A stretch of 64,000 bases of DNA from an uncultured Pelagibacteraceae bacterium (GTDB lineage Bacteria > Pseudomonadota > Alphaproteobacteria > Pelagibacterales > Pelagibacteraceae), in assembly GCA_902628275.1 (NCBI GenBank), contig CACOMI010000002.1, positions 116,643 to 180,642 on the forward strand, in the 5' to 3' direction. The notes beneath the pieces are model-generated. The model saw only the letters and a program-made list of their open reading frames with translations, searched no databases and was not told the origin of the DNA. Position 1 is the first letter of the stretch, and every line of letters begins with the position of its first letter. Both the position numbers and the translations under genes were made by a program. Of this stretch, positions 49,613 to 51,472 are shown piece by piece.

Positions 49613-49906
49613 ATGAATACATCAGTTAATACTGACGATGTTATTTTTAATTTTTTTAAACAAATTTGTGATGAAAAGAATGATGAAAAATGTGTGGAGC
49701 TAGGTAAAGAATGGATAAAAGCGATGGAGACAAATCTATCTGAAATGGAAAAAAATCTTAATGGAGCTGACAAGTTAAAGCATAAAGATGATATTCAAAG
49801 CAATCGTGATCACTTAAATAGTCTGAAGAATAAAAACTCCTCTGAATGGAGACAATATGCAACTCAATGCATGATTGAAATAATGAATCATAAGAACCAA
49901 AAATAA
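49613..49906 (+). CDS. Hypothetical 97-aa protein adjacent to the pentapeptide protein
   Basis: ORF, 3-nt gap from upstream gene, same strand. Confidence 0.6.
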   Translation: MNTSVNTDDVIFNFFKQICDEKNDEKCVELGKEWIKAMETNLSEMEKNLNGADKLKHKDDIQSNRDHLNSLKNKNSSEWRQYATQCMIEIMNHKNQK

Positions 49907-49958
49907 TTAAGGAAATAAAATTTAAATTACTAGCCATATCAATTAATTTAATATAGAA

Positions 49959-50029
49959 ATCTTTTTAAGGGGTGTCTTAACAGACTGAGATTATACCCTA
50001 AGAACCTGTCCGGTAATTCAGAAAGGGAT
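49959..50029 (+). ncRNA. TPP riboswitch (THI element)
   Basis: GGGGTGTC-TTAACA-GACTGAGATTATACCCTAAGAACCTG core plus closing P1 ATCTTTTT/AAAGGGAT. Confidence 0.93.
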
Positions 50030-50032
50030 AAA

Positions 50033-51472
50033 ATGGATAAAGTATATTTTTTAAGTCAACAATCATCTTTAGTTATAGTTATTTCAATAAGTTTTATATT
50101 TGCAATAATAGGTCTTTATCATTCAAAAAAATTTCAAGGTATAAATAATTACCTAACAGCGAATAGAAATATAGAATTATTGTCTTTGACCACAAGTCTA
50201 GTTGCTTCAGCATTAGGTGCTTGGATTCTTTTTGGTCCTGTTGCTGCTGCGACATGGGGTGGTCTAGGTGCAGTAATTGGCTATGCATTAGGAACAGCTT
50301 TTCCAATGATCTTTTTAATTTATTTAGGAAAAAAAATAAGAAGTGATTTTCCTAAAGGATCTTCCTTAATTGAATTTATGAGAAAAAAGTTTGGCAAGAG
50401 CTTATTTAAATTAATTCTACTAATGACAATTTTTTATATGTTTATTTTCCTTTGCGCTGAAGTAACTGCAGTGGCAGTTTTAATCAATTATCTATCAGGA
50501 ACAGAACTTTGGATTACGGCTTTAATTGTATTGATATCAACTCTGACTTATACGCTGTATGGTGGTTTAAGAGCATCAATATTTACTGACAACATTCAAA
50601 TGGTTGTAATCGGAATATTACTATTTATTTTAATTTTAATAATTAGTTCATCAAGTGGAAGTAATTTTTCATTCGAATTTATTGAGAGTAAAAATCCACA
50701 ACTTTTAAGCTCATCATATATTCCAAATTATACAGCTGGGCTAACTTTTTTTATAGCTGTCGCAGCAACAAATTTATTTCATCAGGGTAATTGGCAAAGA
50801 GTATATGCAGCAAAAAATTACCAAACTTTAAAAACAAGTTTGATCATCTCATTTTTTATAGTTATCCCTATTATTTTTATAATGGGTTTTATCGGAATGG
50901 TTTCATTTTCTATAGACTCAAGTACAAGAGCTGATTTAGGTTTTTTTACTTTGTTATTAAAAGATCAAAAAGAACTTATATCTTTAATTATTATTATACT
51001 GGGATTATCACTTACAATTTCTACAGTAGATACTTTAGTAAATGCCATTTCAAGCTTGTTTGTTGTTGACGGTAAAGCAACTTTTGGATTAAATAAAAAT
51101 ACAGATTATTTAAAAATATCAAAATATTTTATTATTCTTTTATCTATAATTGCTTTTGGTATAGCTTCTAAAGGATTTGATATTTTGTATTTATTTTTAT
51201 TAGCTGATTTGTTTTGTTGTGCATTCGTTATAACTGTTTTTTATAGTTTTTATAAAAAAATAGATGAAAAAACTGCTTTTATTTCAATTATAATTGGTTT
51301 GGTTGGAGGTTTTTTAATGTTTCCTTTTCCAGATTTTTCTAAAAGTTTATTAGTTGGAGTATTTTTATCTAAAGAATTATTTTCATCGTTTATAACTCAG
51401 TCTCTATTATTTTTATCTTTTCTTTTTGCAACTTTTATACCTGCAATAATTTTAAGAATTAAAAATATTTAA
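50033..51472 (+). CDS. thiV: Sodium:solute symporter family transporter under TPP riboswitch; ThiV-like putative thiamin-precursor (HMP) transporter
   Basis: SSS-family membrane protein (ATWGGLGAVIGYALGTAFPM, NLFHQGNWQRVYAAKN) directly after TPP riboswitch. Confidence 0.85.
   Translation: MDKVYFLSQQSSLVIVISISFIFAIIGLYHSKKFQGINNYLTANRNIELLSLTTSLVASALGAWILFGPVAAATWGGLGAVIGYALGTAFPMIFLIYLGKKIRSDFPKGSSLIEFMRKKFGKSLFKLILLMTIFYMFIFLCAEVTAVAVLINYLSGTELWITALIVLISTLTYTLYGGLRASIFTDNIQMVVIGILLFILILIISSSSGSNFSFEFIESKNPQLLSSSYIPNYTAGLTFFIAVAATNLFHQGNWQRVYAAKNYQTLKTSLIISFFIVIPIIFIMGFIGMVSFSIDSSTRADLGFFTLLLKDQKELISLIIIILGLSLTISTVDTLVNAISSLFVVDGKATFGLNKNTDYLKISKYFIILLSIIAFGIASKGFDILYLFLLADLFCCAFVITVFYSFYKKIDEKTAFISIIIGLVGGFLMFPFPDFSKSLLVGVFLSKELFSSFITQSLLFLSFLFATFIPAIILRIKNI

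Follow-up and report, generated by a model that had tools for sequence, protein, structure and literature searches.

In the thiamin pyrophosphate (TPP) riboswitch of E. coli thiM, residues U39-A43 form the pyrimidine pocket, and G60, C77 and G78 interact with the metal ion that coordinates the pyrophosphate, with G78 contacting the pyrophosphate directly (PMC3764141). Recognition of the pyrophosphate by the stems P4 and P5 and the internal loop J4/5 between them is reported as required for switching (PMC4112796). In TPP and preQ1 aptamers, the purine-rich 3' end can stand in for a ribosome binding site (Barrick and Breaker, 2007, PMC2258182), and the lack of a separate expression platform is already known in kind (PMC2258182). 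For marine SAR11 bacteria, ThiV has been described as a likely importer of the thiamin precursor hydroxymethylpyrimidine (HMP), in a 2024 study whose authors call the riboswitch ligand unconfirmed (PMC11452348). Here, we analyse a stretch of 64,000 nucleotides (nt) from an uncultured Pelagibacteraceae bacterium (contig CACOMI010000002.1; hereafter the window), in which a TPP-riboswitch-family aptamer core of 61 nt (49968-50028) lies 4 nt upstream of a thiV gene starting at 50033.

In the Rfam alignment, both halves of J4/5 are deleted from this element: the family consensus for P4-P5 reads CCUg-AU-ccGG-uUAAUa-CCgg-CG-uAGG, whereas the window reads CCUG-UCCG-GUAAUU-CAGA-AAGG. In thiM numbering the lost bases are A61, U62, C77 and G78, so that of the pyrophosphate sensor (G60, C77, G78) the equivalent of G60 is retained. 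The deletion had gone unrecorded in the first-pass annotation of the window. C77-G78 is absent from all leaders of the genus examined and present in all 47 TPP aptamers of other Alphaproteobacteria that served as controls; the main finding, as read from these alignments, is a genus-wide TPP-family aptamer that lacks the pyrophosphate pocket. We interpret the element as a TPP-family (THI-box) riboswitch in reduced form, which would turn thiV translation off through a Shine-Dalgarno (SD) sequence borne by P4 and P5, and give this explanation as a whole a probability of about two in three. It draws directly on the match to the family, the conservation of the core, the loss of P1 and J4/5, the position and complementarity of the SD, and the absence of thiC. 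The features, all on the plus strand, are as follows.

49949-49957, plus strand: candidate -10 region, either TAATAT (49949-49954) or TATAGA (49952-49957); TATAAT-like boxes lie at a fixed distance in relatives
49963-49967, plus strand: would-be P1 5' strand UUUUA, unconserved in relatives (Rfam alignment, flank identity, pair counts)
49968-49973, plus strand: P2 5' strand AGGGGU (Rfam alignment; columns 2-6 invariant)
49974-49985, plus strand: P3 hairpin GUCU-UAAC-AGAC, 4 base pairs (bp) (Rfam alignment, pair counts)
49985-49990, plus strand: CUGAGA, made up of the closing C of P3 and the pyrimidine pocket UGAGA of J3/2 (no variation among 67 distinct leaders of the genus)
49995-49999, plus strand: P2 3' strand ACCCU (Rfam alignment, pair counts)
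50005-50008, plus strand: P4 5' strand CCU and the G equivalent to thiM G60 (Rfam alignment; invariant)
50009-50022, plus strand: P5 hairpin UCCG-GUAAUU-CAGA, stacked directly on P4 with J4/5 deleted (Rfam alignment, 2+2-nt deletion)
50020-50026, plus strand: SD AGAAAGG, from the 3' strands of P5 and P4 (perfect complement of the 16S 3' end)
50024-50028, plus strand: P4 3' strand AGG and the conserved GA after it (Rfam alignment)
50033-51472, plus strand: thiV, sodium:solute symporter family (SSF) protein of 479 amino acids, putative HMP importer (PF00474, E 3.4e-19)

An Rfam scan of the whole window at gathering level (54.3 bits for RF00059) reported nothing, whereas an E-value-threshold scan of 401 nt (49800-50200) matched RF00059 to 49958-50045 at 51.2 bits (E 2.6e-9), and among all Rfam families scanned against the same 401 nt, up to E 5, RF00059 was the sole family reported. 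The TPP-aptamer core claimed by the first-pass annotation is borne out by this match, although the RF00059 scan that it had suggested yields a score below the cut-off; the shortfall is small and homology to the TPP family is not in doubt. The element has P2, P3 and the J3/2 pocket UGAGA that mark the family, and P3 comprises 4 bp (GUCU/AGAC) rather than the minimal 3 bp first described.

Outside the genus, C77-G78 is likewise absent from the SAR11 genera g5 (except L160), g6 and g9, and from g3, where the loop is shortened differently. The loss of J4/5 arose within SAR11, because g2, g8, g4 and g10-g13 retain C77-G78, and L160 of g5 is an intermediate that has lost the 5' side of J4/5 and kept the CG. 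On the sequences compared, nearly every element of Pelagibacter and of three related SAR11 genera has the J4/5-less form. The same J4/5-less core is found in genome G011 at 786509-786569 (plus strand), inside the intergenic region 786467-786574 that is listed for Pelagibacter ubique HTCC1062 by Meyer 2009 (PMC2704228); the published HTCC1062 TPP riboswitch is thus very probably this variant, an identification that rests on coordinates.

RF00059 matched at E 0.01 in 330/397 SAR11 genomes, 15 of which reach the gathering cut-off, as compared with 104/144 in the wider class. The gathering score therefore misses approximately 95% of detectable SAR11 TPP elements (15 of the 330 matching genomes pass), which in practice hides nearly all SAR11 copies. 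When a model of the variant was searched against 289 genomes of the class and 249 of the phylum, the best hits all retained G78 except one (L204), and the exact variant pattern was unmatched in viral contigs. The exception, from the same phylum (G774:C1:1082838-1082891, 1501-1554), resembles a TPP element but has no P5 (GAACCTGATTGGCAGG); a hairpin and a T-rich stretch come after it, and a thiD-like open reading frame (ORF) lies downstream. The pyrophosphate arm may have been lost here independently. Separately, at two further loci (L084, L088) the gene immediately downstream of a TPP aptamer encodes a short-chain dehydrogenase, which is an unusual partner.

Conservation was assessed on 67 distinct leaders of the genus, the window included. 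The core is 95.4% identical among relatives, against 54.9% at the fourfold-degenerate sites of thiV and 38.5% in the 5' flank (-2 to -8), and 48 of its 61 columns are invariant. Stem positions pair in 91.9% of alignment cells, as opposed to 87.5% after shuffling and no more than 60% with the structure slid, and compensatory changes are seen in P3 and P5. The first pair of P5 is U-A in g1 and A-U in g5, g6 and g9, a swap that may represent a single event, while the second is C-G or U-A; judged by these substitutions, P5 is kept up by compensation. A C.A mismatch at the third P5 pair (50011/50020) is invariant in g1, g5, g6 and g9 even though the neighbouring pair changes by compensation, and may have a structural or ligand role. 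This pattern bears on the idea that the element is a relic, a decayed riboswitch kept merely as a strong ribosome binding site, which would suit the loss of P1 and J4/5 and an SD that is unusually strong for the source genome. However, ribosome binding makes no use of P2, P3, CUGAGA or L5, and yet these show either no change or compensated change against a background of about 55% identity at synonymous sites; we regard such decay as improbable.

The first-pass annotation had drawn a closing P1 stem between 49959-49966 and 50022-50029 and had proposed that ligand-stabilised P1 sequesters the SD. All eight pairs can indeed be drawn in the window sequence, but in no other genome: the remaining 66 distinct leaders form 2-7 of the eight, and in the Rfam alignment the proposed 3' strand belongs to P4 (AAGG, 50023-50026). 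In the Rfam register, P1 corresponds to 49963-49967 (UUUUA) with 50029-50033 (UAAAA, which takes in the A of ATG), the GA before it being a joining segment, and the window can form 5 bp of this helix. Four or more contiguous pairs in this register occur in 1 of 68 genus leaders, the window itself, whereas random re-pairing of the 5' with the 3' flanks gives an expectation of 3.8; by this measure the genus pairs P1 no more often than chance, or less often, and the window is an outlier. P1 as a mask of the SD was tried in the annotated register and, allowing slips of 0-3, in that of Rfam, and was rejected, the J4/5-less leaders being no better than re-paired flanks (contiguous pairs 1.09 versus 1.06; best slipped helix 3.23 versus 3.08, P 0.07). 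The test itself works, since P1 exceeds chance in the canonical SAR11 aptamers and in the 47 control aptamers of other Alphaproteobacteria (for the latter, contiguous pairs 2.21 versus 0.75; best slipped helix 4.49 versus 3.35). A mixed set is slightly above chance in pairs out of five (2.48 versus 2.32, P 0.016), an excess owed at least partly to g3 and g6, whereas the trend for the genus alone is downward. The canonical thiV leaders of g2, g8 and g4 have a P1 of 4-6 bp (e.g. GUUUUC/GAAAAC). In the SAR11 family f2 P1 is not evident, hence its loss is not confined to J4/5-less aptamers.

The likely start of the mRNA leads to the same place. An exact TATAAT occurs within 35 nt of the core in 33/80 distinct upstream regions, against 1/80 in an upstream control stretch, and the best TATAAT-like boxes are concentrated at -21 to -18, counted from the base that precedes GGGG, so that the mRNA would begin at the would-be P1. 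Transcription is predicted to start at about -9 to -6, corresponding to approximately 49960-49963 in the window, that is, on the 5' strand of the annotated P1; the window's own -10 region is weak, and a simple consensus promoter scan reports no promoter there. P1 is unconserved in the alignment of SAR11 thiV leaders, the outcome that the first-pass annotation had itself named as fatal to its model, and sequestration of the SD by P1 is highly improbable.

The SD can instead be hidden by the aptamer core. The 16S gene of the source genome (L183) ends in ...GGATTACCTCCTTTCT, and AGAAAGG is an exact 7-nt complement of CCTTTCT (CCUUUCU) in this tail, 6 nt from the ATG. With a duplex energy of -9.4 kcal/mol, it ranks third among 60 ORFs of the window (median -1.55). 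The AGGG noted earlier does lie 5 nt before the ATG, and the view that the SD lies within the aptamer and dispenses with a separate expression platform holds, as no terminator was found in 49850-50150. An SD inside the aptamer core near the start codon, its complementarity to 16S and the missing terminator are the hallmarks of direct translation attenuation, whereas transcription attenuation was ruled out by the lack of a terminator in that interval. Since the SD consists of the P5 and P4 3' strands, it would be hidden once ligand stabilises P4/P5, and the mechanism probably acts on the SD directly through P4/P5 and not P1. In f2, L091-L112 have a canonical J4/5 and a start codon 2-8 nt after AGGRA, before genes for ThiB-like thiamine-binding proteins, a layout suggesting that direct SD control may be general in SAR11.

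In the proposed mechanism, the thiV mRNA would start a few bases before P2, with neither a functional P1 nor a terminator. Binding of a thiamin-pathway ligand, its pyrimidine end read by the intact CUGAGA pocket, would fold the aptamer and pair the 3' strands of P5 and P4; with AGAAAGG paired, 30S loading 6 nt before the AUG would be blocked and thiV translation switched off. When the ligand is absent, alternative folds would keep the SD largely free of pairing, allowing synthesis of the HMP importer. We infer ligand binding, the OFF direction and the transcription start from these features. Nearest-neighbour modelling gives the SD a mean probability of being unpaired of 0.71 for the free ensemble; enforcing the aptamer lowers it to 0.29, a value that follows partly from the imposed constraint. 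This dependence weighs against the proposed mechanism, as do three further points. The folding energy z-score of the single sequence is ordinary; the nearest-neighbour model, which includes no ligand or tertiary energy, places the enforced aptamer about 8.4 kcal/mol higher than the free ensemble, a gap that ligand and tertiary contacts would have to pay; and, by analogy with the requirement reported for thiM, an aptamer lacking J4/5 might not switch with TPP at all (PMC4112796). A conserved alternative fold seen in the free minimum-energy structure, in which UGUCCG pairs with UGGAUA around the start codon, was not adopted, because codon 2 varies and other genera cannot form the pairing.

The gene downstream is thiV, as first annotated: it encodes an SSF symporter (PF00474) orthologous to SAR11 ThiV, with relatives at 80 SAR11 loci (assigned to Pelagibacteraceae, Pelagibacterales or Pelagibacter) at 78-88% amino acid identity. 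The locus thus combines an SSF symporter, whose transport role is putative, with an adjoining TPP-type element in a genome lacking thiC. ThiC was found in 0/118 SAR11 genomes, while ThiD- and ThiE-family genes are present in the source genome, which fits HMP auxotrophy. The J4/5-less elements examined precede thiV or, in g6 (L150, L151), a gene for an NMT1/THI5-like binding protein (PF09084). The gene that follows a canonical SAR11 element is thiV, one for a ThiB-like binding protein or some other, and because such elements too are found before thiV, the suggestive tie of the reduced aptamer to pyrimidine uptake is not exclusive. Downstream, a convergent gene for a thioredoxin-fold protein (PF00085; 51475-51843, minus strand) ends 2 nt after the thiV stop codon.

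With J4/5 deleted, ligand recognition would have to differ from that of E. coli thiM, through either a rearranged TPP site or a shorter ligand (HMP, HMP phosphate (HMP-P) or thiamin); these are two versions of our explanation that differ solely in the ligand. In the first, the element is an ordinary TPP switch that binds TPP via an altered pyrophosphate site composed of the G60 equivalent, the variable base opposite and Mg2+. Here, g2, g8 and g4 retain J4/5 and also carry their elements before thiV homologues, so TPP regulation of thiV is probably ancestral; the J4/5-less elements serve the same genes with the same pocket as these canonical relatives, and their G60 equivalent is invariant. On the other hand, C77 and G78, which make the metal and pyrophosphate contacts (PMC3764141), are deleted together with both opposing bases in all genus sequences examined, while every alphaproteobacterial control retains the CG. 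Taken together, we consider TPP as the ligand to be close to an even proposition, slightly on the lower side.

In the second version, the aptamer senses HMP, HMP-P or thiamin by the pyrimidine end alone and gives direct product feedback on the HMP importer. The combination of an invariant pyrimidine pocket with a deleted pyrophosphate loop is as expected, as is the position of the examined J4/5-less elements before importers of pyrimidine precursors in cells that lack thiC, and HMP uptake by HTCC7211 drops within an hour of HMP exposure (PMC11452348). But canonical J4/5 elements also precede thiV, so that gene identity demands no new ligand, and the affinity of the canonical aptamer drops about 1000-fold when thiamin carries no phosphates (PMC4112796). 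We hold a changed ligand to be a tentative and rather unlikely option. The most specific form of it, in which loss of the pyrophosphate loop turned the TPP riboswitch of the dominant SAR11 genus into one that responds to the pyrimidine alone (HMP or HMP-P), with the P1-less aptamer itself acting as the ribosome binding site switch, would be marginally less likely still on the present alignments. A ligand switch tied strictly to gene identity was rejected as a rule, given the canonical aptamers before thiV.

The question matters since no other group of heterotrophic bacteria in the ocean is as abundant as SAR11, which relies on dissolved HMP, with thiV as the proposed importer, and since models of the vitamin economy assume normal TPP riboswitch control of thiV. 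A pyrophosphate-pocket deletion fixed in the genus turns the ligand question into a narrow one that can be tested at little cost, and a natural change of ligand might come to light in a riboswitch family that is among the most widespread.

Among the known systems, the HMP pyrophosphate (HMP-PP) riboswitch (thiS motif; Atilho 2019, PMC6478431) resembles the window element as a riboswitch for a pyrimidine precursor of thiamin, but its aptamer is embedded in a terminator, whereas the window element has none and is assigned by Rfam to RF00059 alone. Direct translation attenuation by TPP and preQ1 aptamers (PMC2258182) shares the use of the purine-rich 3' end of the aptamer core as ribosome binding site, yet the scheme there includes a P1 switching helix, which is unconserved in the SAR11 genus. 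The RF00059/THI box family shares P2, P3, the J3/2 CUGAGA, P4, P5 with its UAAU turn, the GGGA tail and an adjoining thiamin-pathway transporter; the window element differs from it by the missing J4/5 internal loop, the unconserved P1 and a score below the family cut-off. Closest is the HTCC1062 riboswitch before SAR11_0811/thiV (Meyer 2009, PMC2704228; McRose 2014, PMC4260697), published as a TPP riboswitch with no mention of a missing J4/5 or P1 in the available parts of these papers, which, as represented by G011, has the same J4/5-less core as the element described here.
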